DNA from: Actinomycetes bacterium
Lineage (GTDB): Bacteria > Actinomycetota > Coriobacteriia > WRKU01 > WQUG01
Length of the DNA stretch: 21,752 nt
Assembly: GCA_031268615.1 (NCBI GenBank)
Contig: JAIRWZ010000060.1
Span: forward strand, 1 to 21,752
Direction: 5' to 3'
Shown here: positions 4,236 through 21,386 of the stretch, in pieces
Layout: each line of letters opens with the position of its first letter
How positions within the stretch are numbered: position 1 is the first letter of the stretch
Translations under genes and position numbers: made by a program
The notes under the pieces: model-generated
The model's database searches: none
Seen by the model: the letters and a program-made list of their open reading frames with translations, nothing else
Told to the model about the DNA's origin: nothing

Positions 4236-4290
4236 GAAGTGAGTAGTGAACCTATCCCCGGCTTGACCGGGGGTTCAAACCAGCAAGCAA
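4236..4290 (+). repeat. Palindromic repeat PR1
   Basis: GAAGTGAGTA opens the copy, followed by the core CCCCGGCTTGACCGGGGG at 4256-4273 and an ACCAGC tail. The right terminal arm is weak (TTCGCTCACAATT near 4331-4343). It sits in the 120-bp gap between the histidine kinase stop (4336) and the DUF975/CmpB start (4215). Confidence 0.75.
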
Positions 4291-8375: not shown

Positions 8376-8510
8376 TGGCGGAGAGCCAGGGATTTACGCA
8401 TCTTGTGCTTCGCACAACCTGCGGAGACCTCGCTTCGCTCGCCCCGAAACAGTCCTTAGGGACTGTTTCGCCCTCTCGGGTTCAAATCCCAAAAAGATTT
8501 TGCTAATAGA
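8376..8510 (-). repeat. tRNA-end-mimicking structured repeat, copy B
   Basis: Read on minus, this follows directly after the encoded CCA of tRNA-Ser. It has a TTAGCAA spacer, then GGGATTTGAACCC, and ends with AAATCCCTGGCTCTCCGCCA, an exact copy of the last 20 nt of tRNA-Ser including CCA (8376-8395 equals 8511-8530). Stems visible: outer GGGATTT with AAATCCC; CCC-GAGA-GGG; GAAACAGTCC-CTAA-GGACTGTTTC (perfect 10 bp); TTGTGC-GAA-GCACAA. Copy A at 968-1107 aligns end to end. Confidence 0.75.
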
Positions 8511-8603
8511 TGGCGGAGAGCCAGGGATTTGAACCCTGGATACGGCTCTAAACCGTATACGCGCTTAGCAGGCGCGCGCCTTCAGCCACTCGGCCAGCTC
8601 TCC
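8511..8603 (-). tRNA. tRNA-Ser(GCT)
   Basis: A complete class II tRNA is readable on minus: acceptor GGAGAGC paired with GCTCTCC, discriminator G and encoded CCA. The D arm is GGCCGAGTGGCTGAAGGC. The anticodon loop CTGCTAA between CGCGC and GCGCG gives anticodon GCT (codons AGC/AGT). A long variable arm (TACGGTTTAGAGCCGTA) and T loop GGTTCAAATCC are present. It lies 38 bp after tRNA-Thr on the same strand. Its last 20 nt are duplicated at 8376-8395. Confidence 0.97.
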
Positions 8604-8641: not shown

Positions 8642-8717
8642 TGGAGCCAGCTGCCGGACTCGAACCGGCGACCTACTGATTACAAGTCAGTTGCGCTACC
8701 AGCTGCGCCAAGCTGGC
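8642..8717 (-). tRNA. tRNA-Thr(TGT)
   Basis: A complete 76-nt tRNA including encoded CCA: acceptor GCCAGCT paired with AGCTGGC, anticodon arm CTGAC-TTGTAA-TCAG with anticodon TGT (reads ACA), and T arm GCCGG-TTCGAGT-CCGGC. It is the first of two tandem tRNAs downstream of yacP. Confidence 0.97.
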
Positions 8718-10117: not shown

Positions 10118-11758
10118 TCATTCCTTTCGCACTAAGCGGGGGCCTTGGGCCGTATCTTCAATCAGCCACCCCAAGGCATCCAGACGGTCGCGCAGAGCAT
10201 CGGCGCGTTCCCAGTCCTTTGCCGAGCGCGCCTCCGTACGTTCTGCCAGTAGTTCTTCTGCCTCCACATCCGTCGCCGACCCCGAAGGCGTCACCACAAC
10301 CCCCAGTACGCCCAACAATTCGATGAGGGCGTCTACGGCCGCCTCCAGTGCGCGCCGGTCTGCGTCAGTCGGAACTTCACTGCCCAACCGGTCCAAAAAC
10401 GAGTTGCCTTCGCGTATCAGTTCAAATAAAGCAGCCAGCGCACCAGCCGTGTTAAAGTCGTCATCCATCTCGACTATGAACTTTGCGTGGGCCTTATCTA
10501 CCGCGTCTACCAAGACTTCGTGACGCGTGTGACGCGTATCAGTATCATCAGGACCGGATTCCCGAGTCAAACCCTGGGATGGCGGCGTAGTGTCAGCCAT
10601 GGCCCGCGTGCCAGGAATGGACGTACTCACTCCATTCTGTTCCGCCCCCCCGCTGGCCGTCACAATCCAGCACGCCCGGTCAACGAAAGTTTGTATGCGC
10701 TCGAGCGTCGTGCCCGTCTCTCGCAGCCGCTCGTCGCTGAACTCGATGGGGCTGCGGTAGTGGGTTTGCAGCATGAGGAGGCGGATGACCGGGACGGAGT
10801 AATTGTCCAGCAGGTCGTTTAGCAGCAGGAAATTGCCCAGCGATTTCGACATTTTTTCGCCGCCCGTTTGCAGCATGCCGCCGTGCATCCAGTAGCGTGC
10901 CATCGGACGGCCCGTTGCGGCTTCTGATTGCGCGATTTCGTTTTCGTGGTGCGGGAAAATCAGGTCCAGGCCGCCGCCGTGGATGTCAAAGGGCAGGCCC
11001 AGCTCTTCCCCCGACATTGCCGAACATTCGATATGCCAGCCCGGTCGTCCCAATCCCCAGGGACTGGGCCAGGCAGGTTCACCCGGTTTCGCGGCTTTCC
11101 ACAGCGCGAAGTCCAGCGGGTCACGTTTGCGATTGCGGTCGGCGGCGCTAACGCGCACACCGCTTTCCAGCTCGTCGATGTTGCGGTGCGACAGCTTGCC
11201 ATAGGTGGGAAAACTGCGCACAGCAAAGTAGACGTCGCGGGCGCCAGCCTCGCCATCAGCGCAGCCAGCACCACCCGCACCCTCCTCGCCGCCACTGTCG
11301 GCGCCATCCCCGCCATCCTCATCGACGCCATCGACGCCGTCCCCCCCATCGGTCACATACGCGTGCCCGTCATCGACCAATCGCTCAATCAGCGCCACCA
11401 TCGCCGGAATGGTTTCCGTTGCACGCGGACGAATGGTGGGGTCCTCGACGCCTAGCGCACGCATTTCGCTGATAAACGCGTCGGCGTATTCCGCGGCAAC
11501 CGCGGCGGGCACGCGTCCTTCCTCATGTGCGCGGGCGATGATTTTGTCGTCCACATCGGTGATATTCTGGACAAATCGCACATCCCACCCACGCCAAACC
11601 AAGTACCGCCGCACCACGTCAAAGGACAGAAAAGTCCGCGCGTTCCCAATATGAATGTAGTTATACACGGTCGGCCCGCACACATACATCGACACCCGCC
11701 CGGCCTCGCGCGGCTGAAATTCCTCTTTACTGCGACTCATGGTGTTATAGATTTTCAT
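10118..11758 (-). CDS. cysS: Cysteinyl-tRNA synthetase with two inserts
   Basis: This class I synthetase charges tRNA-Cys. Motifs are complete: zinc ligand Cys27 in [14 protein letters not shown] at 36-39 (the HIGH motif), Cys245 in [22 protein letters not shown] near 268-279 and KMSKS at 302-306. At 546 residues it is longer than the usual 460-490. Two inserts explain this. One is a Gly/Asp-rich stretch at about 138-173, between VTDG and [10 protein letters not shown]. The other, at about 371-414, just before the conserved [12 protein letters not shown] helix, overlaps a palindromic-repeat copy. The ATG at 11758 is chosen because the family N-terminus (MKIYNT) starts there; the longer open frame to 11887 only reads through another repeat. 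TATAAT ends 7 nt upstream, so the mRNA is probably leaderless. It leads the cysS-rlmB-yacP group. Confidence 0.95.
10549..10634 (-). repeat. Palindromic repeat PR2 inside cysS
   Basis: On minus the terminal arm GGAGTGAGTACGTCCA is followed by TTCCTGGC and later by a diverged core CCCAGGGTTTGACTCGGG. The copy is in frame and encodes part of the second cysS insert (from [13 protein letters not shown] to SQGLTRESG). The far terminal arm is degenerate. Confidence 0.6.
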
Positions 11759-11765
11759 AGTGTCG

Positions 11766-11771
11766 ATTATA
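11766..11771 (-). promoter_or_regulatory. -10 box of cysS
   Basis: A perfect TATAAT on minus ends 7 nt before the cysS ATG, which predicts a leaderless transcript. The -35 region is T-rich and poor. Repeat PR3 begins about 30 bp further upstream. Confidence 0.6.
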
Positions 11772-11800
11772 CGGGATATACGGAACAGAAAAATAAAACG

Positions 11801-11850
11801 GAGTGAGTACTGAGCCTGCCCCCGGCTTGACCGGAGGTCCATACCAGCCA
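11801..11850 (+). repeat. Palindromic repeat PR3
   Basis: GAGTGAGTACTGAGCCTG is followed by the core CCCCCGGCTTGACCGGAGG and the tail TCCATACCAGCC. It lies 15 bp beyond the vapC remnant and 42 bp upstream of the cysS start. It is nearly identical to PR4 over its first 46 bp. The right terminal arm is missing. Confidence 0.85.
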
Positions 11851-11865
11851 CCCACACTATCCCCG

Positions 11866-11972
11866 CTACAGCTGGGTAAGCTCCCAAGTCTCCAGACGCA
11901 GACCCACTACCCGCCTGAACTCGCGTTGATTGTCAGTGATGAAATGCAGGTATCGGTATCCAGCAGATACAT
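11866..11972 (-). pseudogene. vapC PIN-domain toxin remnant with internal deletion
   Basis: An ATG at 11972, overlapping the vapB stop as TGATG, begins MYLLDTDTCI, the typical start of a VapC PIN ribonuclease with its first metal-binding Asp. The frame ends after 21 codons. In a shifted frame the same stretch encodes FITDNQREFRRVVGLRLETW, the typical end of a PIN domain, closing at 11866. Roughly 100 central codons are gone, including the remaining acidic residues, so no active toxin can be made. I infer an out-of-frame deletion of the centre of the gene. Confidence 0.75.
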
Positions 11973-12229
11973 CACAGCGTCTGCCTTCGCACATCGTCAT
12001 CAAAGGAAGACTGCTCCGGTCGCCTGAAATCGCTGCCCACGTCTCTGTTGCTACCGACACTGTCCCGAAGCGCGCCAAACAGATTTCGCATGCGCGCCGA
12101 CCAACCCTTACGCAGGTGCATATCCAACGCCGCCGCAACATACTTTGACACTGACACCTGCTCGCTGTTGGCCTCACGACTAATCCGTGCCAAAGTCGCG
12201 TCATCCACATATAAAGAAATCTGCGCCAT
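11972..12229 (-). CDS. VapB-type ribbon-helix-helix antitoxin, orphaned
   Basis: This 85-residue protein has an N-terminal ribbon-helix-helix DNA-binding region (ISLYVDDATLARISREAN... then VSVSKYVAAAL, residues about 4-35). An acidic, aromatic-containing tail ends in FRRPEQSSFDDDVRRQTL, as in antitoxins that bind PIN toxins. It should bind DNA as a dimer and repress its own promoter. The stop overlaps the start of vapC, but vapC is gutted, so this is an antitoxin without its toxin. It may still autoregulate or buffer a related toxin. The start at 12229 has only a weak AGAG-type ribosome site. A TATACT sits about 30 nt upstream. Confidence 0.82.
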   Translation of the reverse strand: MAQISLYVDDATLARISREANSEQVSVSKYVAAALDMHLRKGWSARMRNLFGALRDSVGSNRDVGSDFRRPEQSSFDDDVRRQTL

Positions 12230-12294
12230 TCTGTGCTCTTGTCGCTCAAGGCCTCACAAGTATATCAGTGACGACTTTGAACAAAAGCCACTAA

Positions 12295-12426
12295 TCTAAT
12301 ATACGCAGGGACATCATCGAAACCTTCAAGGAAATGCGCGACCGCGCAAACAGCATTGACGTCAAGACCGAAGTAGCAACGCTCGATAAAACCAAGCTCT
12401 CACAAACCCCCTGGCAGAAGGAGTGA
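12295..12426 (+). pseudogene. 3' remnant of an unidentified gene
   Basis: A plus-strand frame without a start reads RDIIETFKEMRDRANSID, then VKTEVATLDKTKLSQTPW, then QKE and stop. The composition is that of a real protein C-terminus (helical, charged, then a T-P-W motif), but I cannot name the family. It is cut at its 5' end near 12295, where the frame meets a stop. Its stop codon is the TGA inside the GAGTGAGTA arm of PR4, so the repeat abuts or truncates the gene end. It is probably debris of a gene lost during rearrangement of the island. Confidence 0.4.
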
Positions 12427-12470
12427 GTACTAAGCCTGCCCCCGGCTTGACCGGGGGTCCATACCAGCAG
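12420..12470 (+). repeat. Palindromic repeat PR4
   Basis: GGAGTGAGTACTAAGCCTG is followed by the perfect core CCCCCGGCTTGACCGGGGG and TCCATACCAGC. It lies 20 bp beyond the nucleotidyltransferase stop, and supplies the stop codon of the plus-strand gene remnant. Confidence 0.88.
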
Positions 12471-12490
12471 CACAACGAGAGCATGAGACA

Positions 12491-13036
12491 CTATTCATCC
12501 CGCAGAGCAGCTTCCAGAGCAACAACACTGGCAGCCTGCAAGCCTGTTCGTAATTCCGGCAACTGCTCACGCGCAATGGCCAGCGCAGCATCCACGTCTC
12601 TAATTTCCAGATGGTGCAAAAGAAAACGTAAGTCGTCCAAATCCGGCGTATCGGTAAAAATCCGCGCTGACGCAATTTTCAGCGCTAACAAGGCTTCCGG
12701 ACGCAATACTTTGACGCGTAGTCCCGGCAATGAGAGAAAGTCCAAGGCTTCATCCTGCATGCTTTGTGTTAGAAAAAATGCGCCTTTCCGGTTTAGCCAA
12801 TCCGAATCAGCATGAAATTGGTGACCGATAGTACGTACCAGTTCACCAATCTGGTCCGTCAATTCGGCTTGAAAAGCAACATCCAAATCTTTTGTCTGTT
12901 CACGTGAGCCGTAATACAACGACAACGCTCCGCCGCCAAACAATACAAATTCCACAAACCGTCCACTTTTGTGCAAACGCGCCGACAGCTCTGTCAGCAT
13001 AAGCATGAATTCATCCGGCGTAAAGCGTGTTTTCAT
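12491..13036 (-). CDS. Nucleotidyltransferase-fold protein (DUF6036-like), probable TA component
   Basis: This 181-residue protein shows a minimal nucleotidyltransferase signature: FGGGALSLYYG at residues 33-43, then DLDV with two acidic residues (Asp50, Asp52). Later VLRPEALLALKIASAR and LDDLRFLLHHLEI resemble the helical half of DUF6036/AbiEii-like enzymes. Relatives transfer nucleotides to RNA or protein and often act in toxin-antitoxin or defence pairs; the substrate here is unknown. It follows a small partner gene by 41 bp on the same strand. The start at 13036 lacks a strong ribosome site, and TATGAT sits 6 nt before the ATG. PR4 lies 20 bp past the stop. Confidence 0.75.
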   Translation of the reverse strand: MKTRFTPDEFMLMLTELSARLHKSGRFVEFVLFGGGALSLYYGSREQTKDLDVAFQAELTDQIGELVRTIGHQFHADSDWLNRKGAFFLTQSMQDEALDFLSLPGLRVKVLRPEALLALKIASARIFTDTPDLDDLRFLLHHLEIRDVDAALAIAREQLPELRTGLQAASVVALEAALRDE

Positions 13037-13077
13037 ATTCTCATCATACTCTGCGCCGCAACCGCCTTGTGCCCCAA

Positions 13078-13518
13078 CTATACCCGCGTCAAGGCGTTGG
13101 CAGACACGAGCAGATTGCGTCGCGCAAACGCCGAAGGACTTTCGCGCCGCAGCGTTTCAACCGATGACGGCGACAAACATTGGCAGGAAATAGGACCGCA
13201 AACCGCCTGATTATCTGATAGAAAATAGCGCGGCAAAGTCGTCCATTCTGGCACCTGCAAATCGTACTCACCAGCCAGCTGTTCGGCTATGGCGGCAAGC
13301 GTCGCCACCTCTGCCTGCGTCATCGCCCCCGAAACTGGTGGCTCGGTATCCAAAAAGACCTGCCGCCGTCCGGAACCAGCCGCGTAAAACGCATCCAGAA
13401 AGTCCCCGACGGCCACATGACCCGGAACCCCCAGCTCACGCTGATACACCACTTCAGCAAAATTGCGCGCCCGACGACGCAAAATATCGGACGAATATGT
13501 CGTGGGAACGGTATGCAT
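13078..13518 (-). CDS. Small partner protein upstream of the nucleotidyltransferase
   Basis: This 146-residue protein has no catalytic motif I can identify. It contains a helical region with LAAIAEQLAGEYDLQVPEWT (about 82-101), then PRYFLSDNQAVCG, and it ends with the strongly patterned FARRNLLVSANALTRV. Proteins with this layout often sit directly before DUF6036-type nucleotidyltransferases and are treated as their cognate partner or antitoxin; that role is inferred from position. The ATG at 13518 has AGGAG close upstream and a GATAAT box 8 nt before it. The gene is the first of a two-gene unit. Confidence 0.65.
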   Translation of the reverse strand: MHTVPTTYSSDILRRRARNFAEVVYQRELGVPGHVAVGDFLDAFYAAGSGRRQVFLDTEPPVSGAMTQAEVATLAAIAEQLAGEYDLQVPEWTTLPRYFLSDNQAVCGPISCQCLSPSSVETLRRESPSAFARRNLLVSANALTRV

Positions 13519-13583
13519 GGTCTCCTATTATCGCACGAAACAAGTGAGCAGACAGGTAGATATATGCTCGTAAAAGCGCCAGG

Positions 13584-13644
13584 AAGTGAGTAACTGAGCC
13601 TGCCCCCGGCTTAACCGGGAGTCCAGTCCTGGGCGCGCTCACTT
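13584..13644 (+). repeat. Palindromic repeat PR5 (complete, 61 bp)
   Basis: This complete copy runs from AAGTGAGTAACTGAGCC through the core CCCCCGGCTTAACCGGGAG to CTGGGCGCGCTCACTT. The arms AAGTGAG and CTCACTT pair, with a nested core stem. The TGA of the fic gene is inside its right arm (minus strand AAGTGA). Confidence 0.92.
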
Positions 13645-14697
13645 CTTTGGCGGTGCGTAGCGAACTGAACGACCGGCTCCCTCGGTAGCCAGGAGGCCGT
13701 CCTGCACCAAACCGGCCAGCACCCGCTGAACCGAACGGCGGGATAGTTGCGGCAGGATACTTTGAGCTTCGCTCACCGAAATATCGCCAAAACGCTGTAC
13801 GTATGACAGCAGGTCTGTCTGTTCCGCTGTCAGTCGGCGCACGGGACGGCGCGCGTCGTTCAGCCTTCCCGCCGCTTCAGAGAGCAACGACACCTCTGTC
13901 CATAACACCTTGGCCGAGGACAGAAAGCCCACCGCAAAATAGTTCAGCCATTCGGTAAGGTCACGTCCCTCCGCGTAGCGGGTGCCATGTCCCTGCTGCA
14001 ATGCCGCATAATATTCCCTCCGATTGGCGGCGTAATAGCTGTCCAAAACAATCGACGCGCGAAAATCGTAGTCGCGCAGTCCCAGATAACAGGCAGTCGC
14101 CAGCCGGGTCGTGCGGCCATTCCCGTTAGCAAAGGGATGGATACTGACGAGCTGATAATGCAGAATACCCGACGCAATCACCGGATTCAGGTTTTCTGAC
14201 CGCTCTGCCAACCACTCGATTAGTTCATCCACCTTTTCTGCTACCTCATGCGGCGCTGTCCCGGTGTACGCCACCCGGTCGCCATGGTCAACAACAAAAA
14301 TTTCACCACTGCGATACTGCCCGGTTTTTTCCGCCGGCAACAAATCGAGCATGGTCAGGCGATGCAATTCCAGCAGGTCAGCTACTTGCAGGGGCAAACC
14401 GGCGCCTCTGCGTTTCTCAATATAATCCAAGGCCGCACGATAATTGCTCACCTCACGTTGCGCATACCGGTGACGCGTCAGTCGCTCCCCGCTCAGGACA
14501 GCCTCAACCTGCTTGCGCGTCAGAGGATTTCCCTCAATGGACGTTGAATCATGCGTCGCGTCAACCGTTGAACGATGGCGCATTTCGATTTCGCGTTCCG
14601 GCAAAATCGCGCTCGTGTCTGTTCTGACCCGGTAAGCCTCAATCTGCGCAACGGTATTCAGCAGTTTGTTAGATATGGTGTAGTGCGGTTGAAACAT
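13639..14697 (-). CDS. Fic domain protein (probable AMP-transferase, self-inhibited class)
   Basis: This 352-residue protein has an N-terminal inhibitory helix motif (STSIEGN at 51-57, the S/TxxxE-G/N form). The Fic core carries the complete catalytic motif HPFANGNGRTTR (His187 to Arg198), and the C-terminal third looks like a winged-helix domain (VQRFGDISVSEAQSILPQLS then SRRSVQRVLAGLVQDGLL). This matches class II Fic proteins, which transfer AMP to hydroxyl groups of target proteins and are restrained by their own N-terminal glutamate. The target is unknown. The ATG at 14697 fits the family N-terminus; the longer frame to 14844 only translates repeat PR6. TATGCT lies 6 nt before the ATG. 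The stop codon is provided by the arm of PR5. Confidence 0.9.
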   Translation of the reverse strand: MFQPHYTISNKLLNTVAQIEAYRVRTDTSAILPEREIEMRHRSTVDATHDSTSIEGNPLTRKQVEAVLSGERLTRHRYAQREVSNYRAALDYIEKRRGAGLPLQVADLLELHRLTMLDLLPAEKTGQYRSGEIFVVDHGDRVAYTGTAPHEVAEKVDELIEWLAERSENLNPVIASGILHYQLVSIHPFANGNGRTTRLATACYLGLRDYDFRASIVLDSYYAANRREYYAALQQGHGTRYAEGRDLTEWLNYFAVGFLSSAKVLWTEVSLLSEAAGRLNDARRPVRRLTAEQTDLLSYVQRFGDISVSEAQSILPQLSRRSVQRVLAGLVQDGLLATEGAGRSVRYAPPKK

Positions 14698-14786
14698 AAA
14701 CACAGCATACCATAGTTTGCAGCTAATCGCGCCATAATCGCGCCAACTTTCGCGCCATTTTGTGTATGGAAAACACGACAGCGACG

Positions 14787-14846
14787 AAGTGAGTAACTGA
14801 GCCTGCCCCCGGCTTGACCGGGGGCCAGTCCTGGGCGCGCTCACTT
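14787..14846 (+). repeat. Palindromic repeat PR6 (complete, 60 bp)
   Basis: It runs AAGTGAGTAACTGAGCCTG, core CCCCCGGCTTGACCGGGGG, then CCAGTCCTGGGCGCGCTCACTT. It differs from PR5 at three positions, one of them a single-base gap. It sits upstream of fic and upstream of the divergent surface-protein gene, the only clear copy not at a gene 3' end. Confidence 0.92.
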
Positions 14847-14956
14847 ACTCACCACAGGCGCTAGTCGTGCTATGTGCCGAAAGACAGTTCGGTCGATTAC
14901 GGTTTGCTCTAGGCAGTAATTGTCAAAAACCGCTGAAAAATTGAGTGCGCGCCACT

Positions 14957-14962
14957 TATAAT
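14957..14962 (+). promoter_or_regulatory. -10 box of the surface-protein gene
   Basis: A perfect TATAAT lies 64 bp before the ATG at 15027. The -35 position holds TGAAAA, a weak match. The leader would be about 57 nt, long enough for the AAGGAG ribosome site seen at 15014-15019. Confidence 0.45.
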
Positions 14963-15026
14963 TGCCGGGCAATAGGACTACCATTGACCCAAGTAATTCA
15001 ATCTACCCTATGGAAGGAGCGGGGAA

Positions 15027-16052
15027 ATGGACAAACGTAAGCGTCGTATCGGGAAAGTCATGTCAGGCAAGGCGGCTGCTGTACTGCTTGTAGCAGCCGT
15101 ACTCTTGTGTGCGTTACCGGTCACAGCCGGAGCTTGGATGTATGGCCAAGTAACGATTCACCAAGGCAATGCGGCAGGTACGATAACTGCCACAAACATC
15201 ACCACGTACTATCCGGAAACCGGCCCTTTGGTAGTCAAAATTGATTCCTTTCTTACCAGTATTGCCGCCAATAACGCTGAACTGGCGATTCTCAACTCAT
15301 CGGGCGCAAAAATCTGGCGCGACACCGGCAACAAGTATTTCCTTAAAGGCACGTTTAAGCTAACCGGCTTGGATACCGTACCGGTCGGCGCCTACCGCGT
15401 GCAATTGACCTGGGGCAGTCTGGATTTGGGGACAGACGGCTATAAGGATTTCACTATTGCGAAAAAGGCGGGAAGCCCCGGCGGTGGAAGCCCTGCTACT
15501 GGCGGCGCCTTTACCGATACCAGCGGGAAAAAGATTAGCATTACTGTCGCCGCTATTGCGAACAAAACCTGGACAGGCAAACAGATTAAACCGAAGGTTG
15601 CCGTCGTTACCGCAGAGGGCACGACACTAAAAAGCGGAACAGACTACACGCTTTCGTATGGCAAGAACAAAAACATCGGTAAAGCAACCATCAAGGTCAC
15701 CGGAAAAGGCAGCTACAAAGGAAGCATTTCTGCCACGTTCAAAATCGTGCCAAAAAAGCCAACGAGCCTCAAGCTCACCGCCGCGAAAAAATCTCTGAAA
15801 GTAACTTTCAAAAAAGTGAGCAAGGCACAAAAAATAACCAGCTACAAAGTTCAGTATCGCCTCAAAGGAACGTCCGCATGGAAATCGAAGACAGTCAAAG
15901 TGAAACTGACGGGCGCCTCGGCAAAGAAAACCACCGCGGTCGTCACGCTGAAAAAGCTGACGAGCAAGAAAACCTATCAGGTTCGTGTCTATGCCTACAA
16001 AGGAGCCTACGCTGGCAATGCGACCGGCATTAAAACCAAGAAAATAAAATAG
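15027..16052 (+). CDS. Secreted lysine-rich surface protein with Ig-like/Fn3-like repeats
   Basis: This 341-residue protein has a signal peptide (basic 1-15, hydrophobic 16-34, likely cut after TAGA at 36). A beta-rich domain (about 37-148) and a glycine/serine linker (SPGGGSPATGG) follow. Next is a domain starting near 167 with WTGKQIKPKVAVVT, GTDYTLSYGKNKNIGKATI and KGSYKGSISATFKI, a pattern common in surface proteins of Coriobacteriia and Clostridia. A fibronectin type III-like C-terminal part follows (about 247-341: LKVTFKKVS, SYKVQYRLKG, TYQVRVYAYKG). No sortase signal or membrane anchor is seen, and the C-terminus is strongly basic, so binding to the wall by charge is possible. AAGGAG lies 7 nt upstream of the ATG. 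Likely adhesive or structural; no enzyme motif. Confidence 0.8.
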   Translation: MDKRKRRIGKVMSGKAAAVLLVAAVLLCALPVTAGAWMYGQVTIHQGNAAGTITATNITTYYPETGPLVVKIDSFLTSIAANNAELAILNSSGAKIWRDTGNKYFLKGTFKLTGLDTVPVGAYRVQLTWGSLDLGTDGYKDFTIAKKAGSPGGGSPATGGAFTDTSGKKISITVAAIANKTWTGKQIKPKVAVVTAEGTTLKSGTDYTLSYGKNKNIGKATIKVTGKGSYKGSISATFKIVPKKPTSLKLTAAKKSLKVTFKKVSKAQKITSYKVQYRLKGTSAWKSKTVKVKLTGASAKKTTAVVTLKKLTSKKTYQVRVYAYKGAYAGNATGIKTKKIK

Positions 16053-16079
16053 CGCCGTAACAAAAAAGAGTTTATACAA

Positions 16080-16140
16080 AAGTGAGTAACCGAGCCTGCC
16101 CCAGCCTTGACCGGGGTTCCAGTCATGGGCGTACTCACTT
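16080..16140 (+). repeat. Palindromic repeat PR7 (complete, 61 bp)
   Basis: It runs AAGTGAGTAACCGAGCCTG, core CCCCAGCCTTGACCGGGG, then TTCCAGTCATGGGCGTACTCACTT. Here the outer arms pair for 9 bp (AAGTGAGTA with TACTCACTT). It lies 27 bp after the surface-protein stop. Confidence 0.92.
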
Positions 16141-16155
16141 CGCTTGCTTTTTTTT
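16080..16155 (+). terminator. PR7 hairpin followed by T8, probable terminator of the surface-protein gene
   Basis: The palindrome PR7 is followed after CGCTTGC by eight T residues (16148-16155). The T run is 7 nt past the stem, slightly further than ideal. It suggests the repeat has been taken up as a transcription terminator. Confidence 0.45.
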
Positions 16156-16212
16156 CCTACACAGCACGAGCGCGCCCCGGAGACGGGTGGTGCGCTCATG
16201 CTGTCACAAAGG

Positions 16213-16234
16213 AGACACTTGGAGTGAAGTGTCT
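16213..16234 (-). terminator. Hairpin after metQ
   Basis: AGACACTT and AAGTGTCT form a perfect 8-bp stem around 6 nt, 18 bp after the metQ stop. On minus it is followed by CCTTTGTG, a poor T tract, so termination is only possible. A second long inverted repeat (ACAGCA..GAGCGC with GCGCTC..TGCTGT) lies at about 16160-16204. Confidence 0.35.
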
Positions 16235-16252
16235 GCGAGGAGGAAGGGGCTT

Positions 16253-17143
16253 TTAGAAGACGGGAACTACCGCCGTTCCGAAGGTGCTGGTGATGAAGCT
16301 GCGGGTCGCGTCGCTGGTCAGCGCCGCCGCCAGTTTTTGGATGGCCGGGTCGTTTTCGTTGCCCGTTTTGACCACCAGATAGTTCGCGTAGGTCTGCGCG
16401 GCTTCGCTGGTGGGGTCTTCGGTCGCCAGCACCGTCGTGATGTCGATGTTGGAGCTAAGGGCATAGTTGCCGTTGATGACCGCAAAGTCCACGTCGGGCA
16501 GCAGGCGCGGCAGGTTCTGGGCGTCAGCTTCGGTGAATTTAATCTTGTGGGGGTTGTCCACGATGTCTTTCGGCGTCGCTTCCAGACCCACGCCTTCTTT
16601 CAGCGTGATGAGCCCTTGGGTCTGCAGCAACTGCAGAGAGCGCGCCTCGTTGGTGGCGTCGTTGTCGATGGCGATTTTCGCGCCCGTTTTGATGTCGGAC
16701 AGGGAATCCGATTTGCCCGGATAGATACCCAGCGGCTCGAAATGCACGGCCACAACCGGAGTCAGGTCAGTACCTTGCTCGGCGTTGAACTGCTCCAGAT
16801 AGGGTTTGTGCTGGAAGAAGTTGGCCTGCAGCTCGCCTTCCTGCAGGGCGGTATTCGGCAGGACATAGTCATCGAATTCCGTGATTTCCAGCGTGACGCC
16901 TTCAGCCGCCAGCGTTTCTTTCAGATTGTTCAGAATCTGGGCATGCGGAGCCGGCGTAGCGCCAACAACCAGCGTTACCGGTTCAGTCGTGGCAGCGCCA
17001 TCATCGGCGGTTGCCGCAGGTTCGGCGTTGTCGGTAGCGGACTTGCTGCAAGCGACAAGCCCAAAGGCGAGGGCAAGAGCGAGCGCCAACGCCAGAACCA
17101 CCGGCACAGAAAAATTACCCTTCTTCGTTTTCACTTTCATCAT
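16253..17143 (-). CDS. metQ: Methionine ABC transporter substrate-binding lipoprotein (NLPA/MetQ family)
   Basis: This 296-residue exported lipoprotein should capture methionine for the MetNI importer. The N-terminus has a lysine-rich start, a hydrophobic run rich in LA repeats, and the lipobox GLVAC with Cys32. The mature part opens with TLVVGATPAPHAQIL and continues with QANFFQHKPYLEQFN and FEPLGIYPGKS, typical of NLPA proteins. AAGGA lies upstream of the double ATG at 17143. It is on the same strand as metNI but 2.5 kb away, separated by two toxin-antitoxin pairs and a divergent membrane-protein gene, so it must have its own promoter. A dyad at 17244-17265 is a candidate operator. Confidence 0.92.
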   Translation of the reverse strand: MMKVKTKKGNFSVPVVLALALALALAFGLVACSKSATDNAEPAATADDGAATTEPVTLVVGATPAPHAQILNNLKETLAAEGVTLEITEFDDYVLPNTALQEGELQANFFQHKPYLEQFNAEQGTDLTPVVAVHFEPLGIYPGKSDSLSDIKTGAKIAIDNDATNEARSLQLLQTQGLITLKEGVGLEATPKDIVDNPHKIKFTEADAQNLPRLLPDVDFAVINGNYALSSNIDITTVLATEDPTSEAAQTYANYLVVKTGNENDPAIQKLAAALTSDATRSFITSTFGTAVVPVF

Positions 17144-17180
17144 TGTGTTCCTTTCTTTCGTCTGTTTCATCGTTTCCGAC

Positions 17181-17213
17181 GTTCCCGTTTCGTTCCTGTT
17201 TCGTTCCTGTTCA
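17181..17213. repeat. Three 11-bp tandem units upstream of metQ
   Basis: GTTCCCGTTTC, GTTCCTGTTTC and GTTCCTGTTCA follow head to tail in the metQ leader. Confidence 0.8.
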
Positions 17214-17243
17214 GCTTCCCGAACTGCTTTCCTGCTATAATCC

Positions 17244-17265
17244 TAGTATTCCTACCTGAATACTA
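17244..17265. promoter_or_regulatory. Dyad-symmetric operator candidate upstream of metQ
   Basis: TAGTATTC and GAATACTA are perfect 8-bp inverted arms around CTACCT. TATAAT occurs at 17236-17241 on plus, just beside it, and AT-rich sequence continues on the other side. The position, about 100 bp before the metQ start, fits a regulator site for metQ or for the divergent membrane-protein gene. I cannot name the regulator. Confidence 0.5.
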
Positions 17266-17321
17266 AGATATTCTATACCTCACCCCCCTGTCAACCCCTT
17301 TTCCGAAAAAGTAATTATCTC

Positions 17322-17357
17322 ATGGTATCGCCACCGGTTATGGTATCGCCACTAACA
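17322..17357. repeat. Two 18-bp tandem units
   Basis: ATGGTATCGCCAC occurs at 17322-17334 and again at 17340-17352, an 18-bp period. It is in the intergenic region between metQ and the holin-like gene. Confidence 0.85.
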
Positions 17358-17396
17358 TTTCCCGTTATCAGAAAAGAGGAAAACTGCGCTATGATT

Positions 17397-17428
17397 GGGG
17401 GGATGGACCACCGGGGGGATGGACCACC
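17397..17428. repeat. Perfect 16-bp tandem duplication
   Basis: GGGGGGATGGACCACC is repeated head to tail (17397-17412, 17413-17428). Confidence 0.9.
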
Positions 17429-17490
17429 GATGAGGACAGAACGACCTCAAGCGTCAAACAGAGGCGGCAGTTAAGGAAATCCACCGGAAT

Positions 17491-17530
17491 AAACAACGAC
17501 GAACAACGAAGAACAACGAAGAACAACGCA
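17491..17530. repeat. Four 10-bp tandem units
   Basis: Units of GAACAACGAA (first AAACAACGAC, last GAACAACGCA) run head to tail just before the ribosome site of the holin-like gene. Confidence 0.88.
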
Positions 17531-17550
17531 AAGGGGAGAGGGTGCTGAAA

Positions 17551-17928
17551 ATGAAGTTCGTAATACGTTGGCTGGTCAGCTCCATTGCGGTAGCCGCGGC
17601 AGTATTGCTGGTTCCCGGTATTGGAGTGGAAGGTTCCGCGCCCTGGTTGCCAATTGTTGTGGTCGGGCTTTTACTGGGTTTGGTTAACGCAAGTTTCGGT
17701 ACGATTATTCGGGCAATCAGTTTCGGGTGCATTTTTTTGACGCTGGGAATCTTCAGCTTAGTCATTAACGCATGGATGCTTCAACTTTCGGCCTGGGTTG
17801 CCACCACTTTCTTCGCGGTACCGTTGTATGTCACGAATTTTTGGGCGGCATTTTGGGGTGGCATTGTTATCAGTCTGGTGACTATGGCGCTTAACGCCGT
17901 TCTGCCACCCGTATCGCCCACAAACTAG
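17551..17928 (+). CDS. Phage holin family IV / YvlD-like four-helix membrane protein
   Basis: This 125-residue protein consists of four hydrophobic segments (about 4-24, 31-52, 56-80 and 90-115). GLLLGLVNASFGTIIR in the second segment and the short loops match the superfamily IV holin/YvlD group (PF04020-type). Despite the family name these are usually chromosomal membrane proteins of unknown function. The ATG at 17551 is preferred over the GTG at 17542 because GGGGAGAGG then lies at a proper distance. It is one of only three full plus-strand genes and is preceded by several short tandem repeats. PR8 lies 35 bp after the stop. Confidence 0.8.
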   Translation: MKFVIRWLVSSIAVAAAVLLVPGIGVEGSAPWLPIVVVGLLLGLVNASFGTIIRAISFGCIFLTLGIFSLVINAWMLQLSAWVATTFFAVPLYVTNFWAAFWGGIVISLVTMALNAVLPPVSPTN

Positions 17929-17963
17929 CGGCAGCGCGACAGGCCCCCCTGTCCGCAGACCAT

Positions 17964-17990
17964 AAGTGAGTACGTCCATACCTGCCAGCG
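17964..17990 (+). repeat. Palindromic repeat PR8 (one end)
   Basis: AAGTGAGTACGTCCATACC is followed by TGCCAGCG. Only the left arm and its first inner segment are recognisable. It lies between the holin-like gene stop (17928) and the RHH antitoxin stop (18028), which converge here. Confidence 0.7.
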
Positions 17991-18027
17991 CCGCTGCGTG
18001 AAACCTGTCATCCGATGTGTCTGAAGG

Positions 18028-18267
18028 TCAACCCAAGCGGTCGTATGACGCCGGCTCAACATCGGGTACCTTGTCCATAATGGTGTGGAAACTTTTCACT
18101 GACCCCCGTTGCGCGCGCCGCGCCAGATAGCTTTCCGTTTTCAGAGCCGACAATTTTTCCGCCAATGCCGAAGCAACCAGCTGATTGACCGAGATGTTTT
18201 CTTCCTTTGCCAGCTCGCGCGCTTCGTTGTGCAGCGACTGCGGCAACCGAATACTCATTGCGCTCAT
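18028..18267 (-). CDS. Ribbon-helix-helix antitoxin paired with a PIN toxin
   Basis: This 79-residue protein has an N-terminal RHH DNA-binding fold (SIRLPQSLHNEARELAKE, then ISVNQLVASALAEKL) and a C-terminal tail (VPDVEPASYDRLG) likely to wrap the toxin. It starts at 18267, overlapping the toxin stop as ATGA, with AGGAGGG 6 nt upstream inside the toxin gene. The order toxin first, antitoxin second is the reverse of most vapBC operons. It should dimerise and bind the palindrome over the shared promoter (18701-18726). Confidence 0.85.
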   Translation of the reverse strand: MSAMSIRLPQSLHNEARELAKEENISVNQLVASALAEKLSALKTESYLARRAQRGSVKSFHTIMDKVPDVEPASYDRLG

Positions 18268-18698
18268 AGCAACCCTCCTGTCTCTCCCAGCCGTTCCAGA
18301 TACTGGCGCGGCTTCAGAATTTCTATACCGAATTGCCTTGTCACTCCCGCAAAGTCCCGCAAGTTATAGGTCACGATACAGTGACAATTCGCCGCTACTG
18401 CCAACTCCAACACGTGGTCGTCATGACTGTCGCGCAAAAAGGGACGCCACAAATAATAAACTTCCTGCAAGTGCGCGATTGAGCATAAGTCACTCACCAA
18501 CTGTTCAATATCCGCATCCGAAAGTGTCTTGTTGGGATGCGCCCGCGTTGCCGCGTCTTCATATTCAGTTACTAAAGACACCGATAAAGCCAGCCGAAAT
18601 TTTTGTTGCGGTGCCAAGTTAAGCAATTGCCATGATGCCCCCGCGCGCGAACGTGTCGCGCTCACAAACACATTCGTATCCAGAAGAATGCAATCCAT
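18264..18698 (-). CDS. PIN-domain toxin (VapC-like ribonuclease)
   Basis: This 144-residue PIN protein starts MDCILLDTNVFVSA with the first metal-binding Asp7. Further acidic residues lie in VSLVTEYEDAATR, in RDSHDDHVLELAVAA and in CIVTYNLRDF. It fits the PIN_3-type toxins that cleave RNA in a magnesium-dependent way, and all acidic positions seem present, so it is probably active. The ATG at 18698 is chosen because the PIN signature begins there and a complete promoter ends 9 nt upstream; the longer frame to 18794 reads through that promoter. The transcript would be essentially leaderless. It is coupled to the antitoxin downstream by ATGA. Confidence 0.88.
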   Translation of the reverse strand: MDCILLDTNVFVSATRSRAGASWQLLNLAPQQKFRLALSVSLVTEYEDAATRAHPNKTLSDADIEQLVSDLCSIAHLQEVYYLWRPFLRDSHDDHVLELAVAANCHCIVTYNLRDFAGVTRQFGIEILKPRQYLERLGETGGLL

Positions 18699-18700
18699 AC

Positions 18701-18737
18701 TATTGGTATTATATACAATACCAATAAAGAAAATCAA
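18701..18737 (-). promoter_or_regulatory. Promoter and operator of the PIN/RHH pair
   Basis: On minus there is TTGATT (18732-18737), an 18-bp spacer and a perfect TATAAT (18708-18713) ending 9 nt before the toxin ATG. A perfect dyad, TATTGGTATT and AATACCAATA around 6 bp, covers 18701-18726 and so includes the -10 box. Binding there would block transcription, as expected for autorepression by the antitoxin. Confidence 0.75.
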
Positions 18738-18796
18738 GCGAACGTAACGGCAGCAGTCTTTTTGCAGGGCAGGCAAAATGCAGCTTCCCCCCACCC

Positions 18797-18846
18797 CGTC
18801 ATCTCGACCGGAACAGACTGCAGGTCTGCGGAGCGGAGAGATCCAA
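18797..18846. repeat. REP-like palindrome, second type
   Basis: CGTCATCTCGACCGG and GCGGAGAGATC form imperfect outer arms, with an inner CAGAC-TGCAG-GTCTG stem at 18814-18828. It differs in sequence from the AAGTGAGTA family, but like those copies it lies close behind a stop codon (36 bp after parE). Confidence 0.6.
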
Positions 18847-18881
18847 GACCCACGCCAGATAAACTTCCTATTGCATTTCCA

Positions 18882-19199
18882 CTATCCCAGTTCTGCCGTA
18901 TCATCAGCCAGCAATCGTTCGAAACGCCAGATACGGACAACAACGACTTTCTCCCCTGTAAAACGATACACGATACGAAAAGGCGGATGAATCAGCTGCC
19001 GCAAGTTTGGATTGTCGAATTCCTCCAGCACAGCGCCGCTTTCAGGAAACTGTCGCAGCTGATCCAATCGTTCCCGCACGGCGCGTACTAAACGGATGCC
19101 TACTTCCGGCACATCCTGGGCGGCATACCATGCTAAGACTTCCTCCAAATCAGCTGCTGCGGATTCGGCAACCTCCACCACAAACGGCTGTGGACTCAT
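18882..19199 (-). CDS. RelE/ParE-family toxin
   Basis: This 105-residue protein has the RelE/ParE layout: FVVEVAESAAADLEEVLAWYA, then RLVRAVRERLDQLRQFPESG, LRQLIHPPFRIVYRFTG, and a final strand with VVVVRIWRFERLL. FRIVYR and the final basic strand are where ParE/RelE toxins hold their functional residues. Whether it targets gyrase (ParE) or mRNA (RelE) cannot be told. The ATG at 19199 overlaps the antitoxin stop (ATGA), which gives the usual antitoxin-first order. Confidence 0.88.
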   Translation of the reverse strand: MSPQPFVVEVAESAAADLEEVLAWYAAQDVPEVGIRLVRAVRERLDQLRQFPESGAVLEEFDNPNLRQLIHPPFRIVYRFTGEKVVVVRIWRFERLLADDTAELG

Positions 19200-19474
19200 G
19201 AAAGTCCCAACCGCTCATCCAGCTTTTCTAACGACATCGTGCGCCCTGCCTCGACATCGGCCAATCCCTGAACGACGGCGTGCATAAACGCCAGCTCGTC
19301 CTGATTCGCCTCATAGCTTTCCAGCGACTGTACAACGGCGCGTCCACGCCCTCGTGAAGTTACCAGTATTGGCCGCTGACTACGCTCAACTTGTCGCACC
19401 ACTTTTCCGGGATTGGCTTTCAAATCCCCCAGCGCAATAACATCTTCAGAAAACTTCACTGTTGTCTGTATCAT
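19196..19474 (-). CDS. Phd/YefM-family antitoxin
   Basis: This 92-residue protein follows the Phd/YefM pattern: FSEDVIALGDLKANPGKVVRQ, then RPILVTSRGRGRAVVQSLESYE, an N-terminal DNA-binding fold with a helical tail that would mask the toxin. The ATG at 19474 has AAGGGGG 6 nt upstream; two TTG codons before it are less likely starts. It should repress its own operon. A short dyad lies upstream at 19495-19506. Confidence 0.88.
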   Translation of the reverse strand: MIQTTVKFSEDVIALGDLKANPGKVVRQVERSQRPILVTSRGRGRAVVQSLESYEANQDELAFMHAVVQGLADVEAGRTMSLEKLDERLGLS

Positions 19475-19485
19475 CAACAACCCCC

Positions 19486-19518
19486 TTAATAGCAGCTGTA
19501 AACAGCCCGTTTAATAGC
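19486..19518 (-). promoter_or_regulatory. Operator candidate of the Phd/ParE pair
   Basis: GCTGT-AA-ACAGC is a perfect short dyad (19495-19506). It is flanked by two direct copies of TTAATAGC (19486-19493 and 19511-19518), a symmetric arrangement suited to cooperative antitoxin binding. The minus-strand TATTAA within the distal copy could be the -10 box. Confidence 0.5.
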
Positions 19519-19541
19519 CCAACCATCATAGCATGGAAATT

Positions 19542-19677
19542 AAGTGAGCGCGTCCATACCTCGCTGTATCGTCATGCCGGAAACAGACTCCATACTTGCT
19601 GCCTCTGGGTGGCGGGCAAGGATTGCCCGCCCTACGCGCACTTGGCAATTGGGTTGCCGGTTTGGGCGTACTCACTC
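19542..19677 (+). repeat. Palindromic repeat PR9 (136 bp, long form)
   Basis: The copy runs from AAGTGAGCGCGTCCATACC to GGGCGTACTCACT, the same arms as PR5-PR8, but with an interior of about 100 bp. The interior has a perfect hairpin GGCGGGCAA-GGA-TTGCCCGCC and a second GGCAA-TTGGG-TTGCC. It lies between the Phd operator and the metI stop (10 bp away). Confidence 0.8.
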
Positions 19678-19687
19678 CTTTTGTGCT

Positions 19688-20368
19688 TTAGGCTCGTTTG
19701 TCTATGTGGCGGACTAGCAGGTTGCAGGCTGATTGGATGAGCTGGATGAGGACGATGATGATGACCAGCGCGGCCAGCAGGACGTCGTCCTGATAGCGGT
19801 TGTAGCCGTAGCGGATGGCGATGTCACCCAGGCCCCCCGCGCCGACCATGCCGGCAATGGCCGAATAGCCGAACAGCGTGATGACCGTGAGGGCGACGCT
19901 GCGCGCGATGGAGGGCAGGCCTTCTCGCAGCAGGACTTTGGTGATGATTTGGAAGGTGTTCGCGCCGCAGGCCTGAGCTGCTTCGATGACGCCAGCCGGG
20001 ACTTCGGCCAGCGAGTTTTCGATAATGCGCGCCACGAAGGGGATGGCGGCAATCACCAGCGGCACGATGGCGCCGGGCACACCGAGGGTCGTGCCGACCA
20101 CCAGACGCGTAAAGGGAATCAGCACGACGACCAGGATGACGAAGGGCAGCGAGCGTCCCATGTTGACAACCCAGCCCAGCGTTGCCGACAGCGTGCGGTT
20201 TGGTTTGAGGCCACCCGGCGCGGTGATGGTCAACAGGACGCCCAGTGGGATGCCCAGCAGGTAGGCGAGGGCTGAAGAAATCAGCGTCATCGCCAGTGTA
20301 GCCCACACACCTTCCAGCAGCAGGGGGCCGAATTCAGTGAGGAAGGCGCCGAAGCCGTCAGCGAACAT
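19688..20368 (-). CDS. metI: Methionine ABC transporter permease MetI
   Basis: This 226-residue permease should form the channel of the methionine importer. It has five or six membrane helices. The cytoplasmic EAA loop that contacts MetN is clear (EAAQACGANTFQIITKVLLREGLP region, about 135-158). NMGRSLPFVILVVVLIPFTR is typical of MetI. The ATG at 20368 fits the family N-terminus and overlaps the metN stop by 11 nt; the longer frame to 20488 would add a proline-rich, out-of-family leader that is the shadow of the metN tail. PR9 lies 10 bp after the stop. Confidence 0.93.
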   Translation of the reverse strand: MFADGFGAFLTEFGPLLLEGVWATLAMTLISSALAYLLGIPLGVLLTITAPGGLKPNRTLSATLGWVVNMGRSLPFVILVVVLIPFTRLVVGTTLGVPGAIVPLVIAAIPFVARIIENSLAEVPAGVIEAAQACGANTFQIITKVLLREGLPSIARSVALTVITLFGYSAIAGMVGAGGLGDIAIRYGYNRYQDDVLLAALVIIIVLIQLIQSACNLLVRHIDKRA

Positions 20369-21212
20369 GGTGGTCTGCACCTGCCTCTTGCGCGTCGTGC
20401 TGGGGGCGGCGGGTGGCGGTGGGGGTAGCGGCGGCGGCGGTAGCGATAACGGCGGTAGCAGCCCCGTTGTCTGCCCGCAGCAGCTCACGGGTGGCGGCCG
20501 CCTGCGGGTGGGCGAACAGGTCAGCCACCGTGCCAGTTTCTACCACGCGCCCGGCGTCCAACACCGCCACCTTGTTGCAGATACGATGCACCACCGACAT
20601 GGCATGCGTGATGACCAGCATGGTCACCCCCAGCTCGCGATTTATGTTGCGCAGCAAATCCAGGATGGACTGCGTCGTCGTCGTGTCCAGCGCGCTGGTT
20701 ACCTCATCGCAGAGCATGATGGAGGGATGATTGGCCAGCGCCCGCGCGATGGCGACACGCTGTTGCTGTCCACCGGAAAGCTGTGAGGGCCAGGACTGCG
20801 CCTTGTCGGACAAACCGACCAGTTCCAGCAGTTCCTGGGCGCGGGCACGACGCGCCTCGGCCCCGTCATGGCGAATCTCCAGCGGAAAGGAAACATTAGA
20901 CAGCACGGTACGCTGCGCAAAGAGGTTAAAGTCCTGAAACACCATCCCGATACGGGCGCGCAGGTCAAGCAGGTCCCGCCCGGCAAAGTGCGTCACATCC
21001 TGCCCGCTGACAAAAACCTGCCCGGCAGTCGGGCGTTCCAGCAGGTTGACGCAGCGCGCCAGCGTGGACTTGCCCGCACCGGACCGGCCGATAATCCCGT
21101 AGATGTCACCGGGCGCGACCGTCAGGCTGACGTCGCGCAACACCTCACTGGCCTCACCGTTCACCGTGAAGGACTTTGACAGCCCGCGGATTTCTATAGC
21201 AGCAGTTTTCAT
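20358..21212 (-). CDS. metN: Methionine ABC transporter ATPase MetN, lacking the NIL domain
   Basis: This 284-residue ATPase powers methionine uptake. Walker A is GRSGAGKST (42-50), the Q loop is in GMVFQDFNLF, the signature is LSGGQQQR (145-152), Walker B is IMLCDE (165-170) with VTSALD, and the switch is VITHAM. E. coli MetN is about 343 residues and has a C-terminal NIL domain that binds methionine and inhibits transport. Here that domain is missing, replaced by about 40 residues of Ala/Thr-rich low-complexity sequence. The ATG at 21212 fits the family. TATACT ends 7 nt upstream and CTCCCC takes the place of a Shine-Dalgarno, so the mRNA is probably leaderless. metI overlaps its end. Confidence 0.93.
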   Translation of the reverse strand: MKTAAIEIRGLSKSFTVNGEASEVLRDVSLTVAPGDIYGIIGRSGAGKSTLARCVNLLERPTAGQVFVSGQDVTHFAGRDLLDLRARIGMVFQDFNLFAQRTVLSNVSFPLEIRHDGAEARRARAQELLELVGLSDKAQSWPSQLSGGQQQRVAIARALANHPSIMLCDEVTSALDTTTTQSILDLLRNINRELGVTMLVITHAMSVVHRICNKVAVLDAGRVVETGTVADLFAHPQAAATRELLRADNGAATAVIATAAAATPTATRRPQHDAQEAGADHHVR

Positions 21213-21219
21213 GGGGAGT

Positions 21220-21225
21220 AGTATA
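21220..21225 (-). promoter_or_regulatory. -10 box of metNI
   Basis: TATACT on minus ends 7 nt before the metN ATG. The -35 region is weak. A second possible promoter has TTGACT, which overlaps the edge of the 21264-21290 palindrome, but its -10 is poor. Confidence 0.45.
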
Positions 21226-21263
21226 GCAATAGACCCGCTATTCGCCAGAAAGCTGAAGGGAGT

Positions 21264-21290
21264 CAACTGTACGAAAATATCGTACAGTTG
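21264..21290. promoter_or_regulatory. Perfect 27-bp palindrome upstream of metN
   Basis: CAACTGTACGA and TCGTACAGTTG are perfect 11-bp arms around AAATA. It lies 52 bp before the metN start and partly overlaps a TTGACT hexamer on minus. No T run follows on either strand, so it looks like an operator and not a terminator. The regulator is unknown; it does not match the MetJ AGACGTCT box. Confidence 0.65.
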
Positions 21291-21333: not shown

Positions 21334-21386
21334 TAGTGAGTGACGAGGAGTAGAGGAATAGCTCGCAGGAATGGACGCACTCACTT
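21334..21386 (+). repeat. Palindromic repeat PR10
   Basis: A left arm TAGTGAGTGACG and a right arm ATGGACGCACTCACTT bracket about 25 bp. The right arm matches the 7754 and 10611 copies; the core hairpin is not evident. It lies 25 bp after the cysE stop. Confidence 0.55.

Follow-up and report, generated by a model that had tools for sequence, protein, structure and literature searches.

The window, a 21,752-nucleotide stretch of an Actinomycetes bacterium (contig JAIRWZ010000060.1, assembly GCA_031268615.1), carries a series of short repeats, labelled PR3 to PR9, among accessory genes upstream of the cysteinyl-tRNA synthetase gene cysS. Do these repeats delimit exchangeable gene cassettes, or do they belong to a wider system? 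An earlier note on this DNA described them as palindromes that bound successive toxin-antitoxin-type cassettes and act as their shared recombination ends. This reading fails on its central point. The repeats are built on a short word that occurs throughout the genome and, judged from sequence, probably represents a DNA uptake sequence.

The window is contig 41 in a 157-contig assembly of 1,067,089 bases in total that is about 62% complete. Its genome is referred to here as G000, and eight relatives from other genera of the same family as G001 to G008. For all word counts, the control is the reversed pattern. The G000 sample comprises 336 kb on 41 contigs, including the window, picked mainly for listed hits on the contigs; some of the relatives' stretches were likewise picked for hits. 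Coding status was assigned with a purpose-written gene caller, which gives a coding share of 88% for the G000 sample. A survey of the class covers 396 genomes, the nine of the family and 387 others. Among the best 80 of at least 590 matches, the closest named match to the CysS of the window is that of the coriobacterium Anaerotardibacter muris (48% identity), and on this single protein a place in the Coriobacteriia is probable. The literature compared is PMC3630211, PMC2346458, PMC1626085, PMC5031613, PMC12616744, PMC6370729, PMC3898611 and PMC2397512.

When the copies are aligned, the repeat unit is an asymmetric word, AAGTGAGTACGTCCATNCCTG, of about 14–20 bp with the core GAGYRCGYCCA. If at most one mismatch is allowed, the 1.07-Mb G000 assembly has 449 sites of the word and none of the reversed pattern. 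There is no strand bias (227 plus, 222 minus), and the mean spacing genome-wide is one word per 2.4 kb, or 0.42 per kb. In the hit-selected sample, the density is 0.65 per kb with split copies included and up to two mismatches allowed. The word also ranks first in de novo k-mer counting of the G000 sample, in which no motif is assumed. A scan of a genome contig collection with AAGTGAGTACGTCCATNCC gave no match, and a search of a viral contig collection for plain and split words gave none; the source or a very near genome may be absent from either collection.

The repeats PR3 to PR9 are present at the places first described, and the gene order given for them is correct: cysS, Fic, fn3 surface-type, MetQ-like, Phage_holin_4_2, HicB/ribbon-helix-helix (RHH) with PIN_3, Phd with ParE, MetI-like and MetN-like. 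The description of the repeats as palindromic does not hold. The unit is asymmetric, PR3 to PR7 contain the word split by a hairpin, and PR8 and PR9 are plain words. In the window, 8 of the 11 gaps of at least 100 bp hold the word, and there is no copy between the PIN and ParE units (none between 17971 and 19549). Elsewhere in the G000 sample, 49 of 86 such gaps hold the word (Fisher P = 0.52). With the word in over half of the longer sampled gaps, a bounding copy says little about a gene, and this frequency accounts for the copies on either side of the toxin-antitoxin genes. Under these conditions, a repeat at the borders of each accessory gene can be a trivial outcome.

More window copies lie outside the claimed array. 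A split word is found at 4236–4284 (plus) between an ABC-type protein gene and a histidine kinase gene, and the whole word AGTGAGTGCGCCCA at 4601–4614 (minus) is inside the histidine kinase gene. A DUF2207 gene contains the word with one mismatch, AGTAAGCGCGTCCA, at 6819–6832 (plus), and a whole word at 7761–7774 (minus) lies at the listed 5' end of this open reading frame (ORF). The true DUF2207 start is probably downstream of the listed start, and the gene caller agrees. Further whole words are at 10618–10631 (minus) inside cysS and at 21372–21385 (minus) upstream of metN. The copies at 4614, 6819 and 10631 are inside ORFs. The word is about as frequent in sampled gaps elsewhere as in the window and is also present inside genes, and on these two grounds the repeats were rejected as shared recombination ends of cassettes.

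The remaining part of the original claim, that accessory genes lie here among housekeeping genes and that metQ is apart from metNI, is borne out by the relatives, some of which keep a tighter gene order. In G002 and G005, a homologue of orf21412 (39–40% identity) lies directly before cysS, which implies that the window carries extra genes between orf21412 and cysS. In G004, the gene directly before cysS is metQ, and the 18-kb G004 stretch gave no match to metNI; metQ appears to be apart from metNI in this genome too. The metN, metI and metQ genes are contiguous in G002 and G007, where they are located elsewhere. The CysS, RlmB and MetQ proteins of family relatives are 50–58% identical to those of the window, which makes these relatives too distant for placing cassette breakpoints. 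An array of exchangeable cassettes with the repeats as shared recombination ends is very unlikely. The compact orf21412–cysS interval in G002 and G005, its expansion in the window, the separation of metQ from metNI and the local PR5–PR7 subfamily described below would fit such an array; the gap counts, the copies inside cysS and other genes and the PIN and ParE units without a separating copy argue against it.

The same interval could instead be a minimal-mobile-element site. PMC3898611 defines a minimal mobile element by whole-gene cassettes that differ between the same pair of conserved genes and for which homologous recombination is the only route of incorporation. Here, natural transformation would bring in whole-gene cassettes, which would be exchanged through homologous recombination within the flanking genes, with the words aiding uptake and not serving as crossover points. 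This account is a real possibility, at somewhat less than an even chance. Relatives differ in content upstream of cysS, although the variation is seen between genera only. The account is compatible with an uptake sequence and does not exclude it.

The word has a strong consensus. Perfect cores number 142 in G000 and one-mismatch cores 76, compared with 63 one-mismatch cores in the reversed control. The signal is weaker in G006 (57 perfect; 70 with one mismatch, 43 in the control) and in G001 (37 perfect; 48 with one mismatch, 28 in the control). An anomalously strong consensus is described for uptake signal sequences (USS) and DNA uptake sequences (DUS), and sites of regulatory proteins usually show a relaxed consensus (PMC1626085). 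This bears on a rival explanation in which the word is the binding site of an abundant chromosome protein, such as a nucleoid organiser or a partition or replication-linked factor. The genome-wide spread, the conserved core and the family dialects would fit a protein that co-evolves with its site. A relaxed consensus would be expected of such a site, yet one-mismatch copies barely rise over background, and the word is at control level in three of the nine family genomes. Neighbouring copies also show no polarity (39 same, 55 opposite), which sets the word apart from Chi and from FtsK-orienting polar sequences (KOPS). A chromosome-protein site is unlikely, though it would account for several features of the word.

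The orientation of neighbouring copies is same or opposite in 39 and 55 cases in G000, 15 and 30 in G006, and 10 and 13 in G001. Close pairs are of the '+-' type in six of six cases in the G000 sample. The single close pair in G006 is not opposed, and in G001 there is one '+-' and one '-+' pair. A Chi- or KOPS-like polar motif was rejected, as neighbours are not co-oriented. In the G000 sample, the spacing of copies is more even than random (coefficient of variation (CV) 0.67 versus 0.82, P 0.003).

Many copies lie inside genes. In G000, called genes contain 81 of the 142 copies, a lower proportion than the coding share of the sample (P 4e-20). The corresponding counts are 39 of 52 in G006 (P 0.007) and 27 of 34 in G001 (P 0.03), so that non-coding copies are in excess in each. 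The genic G000 copies are confined to restricted reading frames. Gaps at the word in protein alignments were compared with those at control segments, grouped by flank identity, after the insertion-versus-substitution test of PMC1626085, which is also the source of the USS/DUS trait list used as criteria. At a flank identity of at least 0.5, gaps are present in 3 of 20 alignments (11 sites), one of them in the core, and the control values are 168/1012 and 51/1012. The conserved segments examined include SRP54, a PP-loop ATPase and an ABC ATPase. In conserved coding segments, the word appears to have arisen by substitution rather than insertion, as the trait list has it for USS and DUS.

The repeats in the window differ in structure. 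PR3 (11800–11848, plus) and PR4 (12420–12468, plus) are words interrupted after AAGTGAGTAC by a 26–27 bp hairpin, TGAGCCTGCCCCCGGCTTGACCGGGG, after which the word continues. PR5 (13584–13643, plus), PR6 (14787–14845, plus) and PR7 (16080–16139, plus) each consist of a split word followed by a plain word in inverted orientation, at 13630–13643, 14832–14845 and 16126–16139, respectively, all on the minus strand. PR8 is a plain whole word at 17965–17978 (within 17963–17983, plus). PR9 contains plain whole words at 19543–19556 (within 19541–19561, plus) and at 19663–19676 (within 19651–19683, minus), the second opposed to the first. A palindrome, GGCGGGCA-N5-TGCCCGCC, lies between these opposed words at 19611–19631 and occurs at four separate sites in the 336-kb sample.

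In the G000 sample, a pattern search gives 42 split copies, 28 of them intergenic. The hairpin is at the same position of the word in nearly all listed hairpin copies; exceptions are L026 near 11008, with a whole word ahead of the hairpin, and L033 near 5748. An inverted plain word lies 61–86 bases downstream in 6 of the 42 split copies. The left half GTGAGTA[CT]T is common to 25 of the 42, although it was also part of the pattern searched for. None of the samples from the eight relatives, several of which bear the word, yielded the hairpin, and the word is therefore probably the older layer. G006 has a hairpin repeat of its own, GTCACCCCGCACTTGATGCGGGGTCTC (L035–L037), and none of the nine copies seen is joined to a word.

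Exactly three perfect matches to AGTGAGTANNNGAGCCTG are found in the G000 genome, and these are PR5, PR6 and PR7. Over the element, PR6 is 95% and PR7 85% identical to PR5, and other copies are 81–93% identical, mostly over shorter stretches. By eye, the flanks of the three show no likeness past the element ends. PR5–PR7 appear to form a local subfamily, the best remaining hint of an element-related event around fic; local spread of a small element would give the same subfamily. On another G000 contig, L028, two similar composites of split and opposed plain words lie at 1595–1668 and 2807–2880, 1212 bases apart, and resemble the PR5–PR7 cluster. Folded as RNA and compared with shuffled sequences, PR5 (z -2.1) and PR6 (z -3.0) are better than shuffled; PR7 (-1.3), PR4 (-1.0), PR3 (-0.1) and PR8 (+0.7) are not clearly so. 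Terminator-like sites in 11700–19750 are at chance level (11 versus 10.5).

These copies bring in a further rival explanation, a selfish interspersed repeat similar to repetitive extragenic palindromes (REP) or miniature inverted-repeat transposable elements (MITE), in which a transposable mini-element has the word as its end and the plain words are leftover solo ends. The PR5–PR7 hairpin copies with their inverted ends resemble small elements with AAGTGAG terminal repeats, most split copies share one left half, and a young copying element would also give a strong consensus. Gap enrichment near copies in weakly conserved protein regions fits a selfish repeat as well. Well conserved segments, on the other hand, are gapped at the control rate (3/20), and the hairpin is not found in the relatives' samples. 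A clean insertion of about 20 bp usually shifts the reading frame, yet more than half of the G000 copies are in called genes. REP and MITE-like repeats would be palindromic and intergenic only; the plain word is asymmetric and common in genes, and only the split form is mostly intergenic. A pure transposon-end reading is disfavoured by the gap test in conserved segments, and the less conserved segments point the opposite way. Taken as a whole, a selfish repeat is quite unlikely as the origin of the word.

Of the eight relatives in the family, three have the core in abundance, two have raised counts and three are at control level. Whole-genome counts of GAGYRCGYCCAT and of its reversed control are 264 and 1 in G000, 197 and 4 in G006, 93 and 1 in G005, and 82 and 4 in G001. 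They are 31 and 1 in G004, 13 and 1 in G008, 5 and 3 in G003, 5 and 4 in G002, and 3 and 8 in G007. In the 387 class genomes outside the family, the count is at most 41, in 3.4 Mb with a control of 20. The top rank in de novo k-mer counting of the G006 sample is held by GAGTGCGTCC / TGGACGCACTCC. The G001 k-mer GTCCAGTTAGTAGC recurs with common flanks and is a different, longer repeat. The bases at -3 to -1 before the core are AGT in G000 and G-x-G in G006, and 12 of 17 cores in the GC-rich G005 sample read GAGCGCGYCCA. In the sequences compared, the flanking bases differ by genus around a common core, like dialects. By raw count, copies at aligned positions between genera are found in 3 of 114 alignments, and all three are among the 40 alignments with G001, G004, G005 and G006.

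Competence genes are present in the family. ComEC is over the cut-off in eight of the nine genomes, including G000, where the comEC frame is open to the first bases of its contig. The ComEA profile is over the cut-off in three of the nine and found in seven at E 1e-3. Competence in the family is possible on this evidence.

Several observations weigh against an uptake sequence. The hit-based choice of the G000 and relatives' stretches inflates the sample densities, although whole-genome counts are unaffected, and 0.42 per kb is below the roughly 1 per kb of known uptake-word systems. One of the reading frames avoided by genic copies reads a TGA stop, which makes that part of the frame bias trivial. 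The gap test changes with flank identity, and in less conserved segments the copies are gapped more often than the controls: at 0.4 or more, gaps are present in 16 of 37 alignments (controls 443/1700), at 0.3 or more in 35 of 68 (controls 1093/2765), and in all alignments together in 70 of 114 (controls 3197/5617). The cysS word encodes GVSTSIPG in the variable linker that separates the catalytic and DALR domains. At this place, the best-matching relative shown has an 8-residue gap; 2 of 10 alignments are gapless there. In G006, the spacing of copies is not even (CV 0.93 versus 0.85, P 0.81). The motif-poor G002, G003 and G007 have ComEC and none was found in the motif-rich G005, so that the gene does not follow the distribution of the word. 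The incomplete G000 assembly gave no ComEA match. Some class genomes outside the family are several-fold over the reversed control (for example, 23 versus 5 and 19 versus 4), an excess tentatively ascribed to base composition. The distribution of the word is also patchy inside genera. Within two genera, the word-rich G005 and G006 stand beside the control-level G002, G003 and G007. This patchiness suggests loss or recent gain of the trait.

An uptake sequence is nevertheless judged a fairly probable explanation of the repeats. It draws on the abundance of the word, the lack of orientation bias and polarity, the strong consensus, the dialects, the coding copies without excess gaps in conserved segments, the opposed pairs and comEC. 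The DNA-uptake machinery of the cell would recognise the word, through the core and, in G000, its extended form. Word-bearing DNA would be preferentially imported and recombined, and under this bias the word would build up chromosome-wide by substitution and recombination, in gaps and in tolerant protein regions. The hairpin copies PR3–PR7 would be a separate layer, a mini-element in which the word is split around the hairpin, seen only in G000 and probably spreading by copying.

The wider claim has about an even chance of being right. It holds that this is a third, independently evolved uptake sequence and the first outside the Proteobacteria, with genus dialects in a probable Coriobacteriia family, together with a word-capturing hairpin mini-element that rides on or disables the self-recognition tag of its host. 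If true, a third case of an uptake word in a different phylum would mean that uptake words evolve repeatedly. Molecular-drive and safe-sex models could be tested in a separate lineage whose sister genomes include both motif-rich and motif-poor ones. A DNA receptor of a new class would also be indicated, perhaps in a cell that lacks an outer membrane.

The other features of the window are as follows. The housekeeping neighbour cysS is at 10118–11761 (minus) and contains, apart from the word, a Gly/Asp-rich low-complexity stretch at 11243–11356. The ORF described as vapB (11972–12229) has no Pfam match. The nucleotidyltransferase passes the Pfam cut-off for DUF2204 and falls short of those for DUF6036 and AbiEii, and its partner has no Pfam match. 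The fic gene (PF02661) is at 13639–14697 (minus), where the sequence shows an ATG at 14697; the ORF as listed, 13639–14844, opens further upstream. A surface-protein-like gene with an fn3-domain profile match is at 15027–16052 (plus), and a metQ-like lipoprotein gene (PF03180) is at 16253–17170 (minus). In gene order, the gene of the Phage_holin_4_2 protein lies between the MetQ-like gene and the HicB/RHH and PIN_3 genes. The RHH/HicB-like and PIN_3 pair is at 18028–18794 (minus) and the ParE and Phd-YefM pair at 18882–19480 (minus). A different REP-like sequence, GTCATCTCGACCGGAAC...GCGGAGCGGAGAGATCC, separates the PIN unit from the ParE unit at 18797–18846; two stretches of it were tried and gave no second match in the 336-kb sample. 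The metI-like and metN-like genes are at 19688–21266 (minus), and orf21412 has no Pfam match. At gathering scores, Rfam finds two tRNAs over the window and nothing else. At these tRNA genes (8514–8603 and 8645–8717), a perfect 20-base direct repeat is found at 8376–8395 and 8511–8530, 135 bases from start to start.

Among known systems, REP, bacterial interspersed mosaic elements (BIME) and MITE-like repeats share with the split copies a short GC-rich hairpin and, in PR5–PR7, inverted ends. The basic word differs from them in being non-palindromic, common inside genes and hairpin-free in the relatives' samples. The interval upstream of cysS is similar to the Neisserial minimal mobile elements (PMC3898611) in that accessory genes lie between conserved genes and the interval is variable among relatives. 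The Neisserial elements vary within species, whereas the variation here is seen between genera.

Sequence-tagged DNA uptake is described as restricted to the Neisseriaceae and Pasteurellaceae (PMC12616744), and the same two families are named in PMC5031613. No uptake sequence in Coriobacteriia or other Actinomycetota is named in the titles or abstract openings of the literature searched, with subscription journals mostly outside its scope. The word differs from DUS and USS in its unrelated sequence, its probable Actinomycetota (Coriobacteriia) host, its lower density and its hairpin-split derivative, and it is known here from sequence alone. Known DUS also occupy permissive regions, and some apparently arrived by recombination (PMC2397512). 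Like DUS and USS (PMC3630211, PMC1626085, PMC2397512), the G000 unit is a short, asymmetric, over-represented word with a strong consensus, found in both orientations and in opposed pairs. As in those systems, many copies are coding with a non-coding excess, permissive regions are occupied, and the family has dialects around a fixed inner core.

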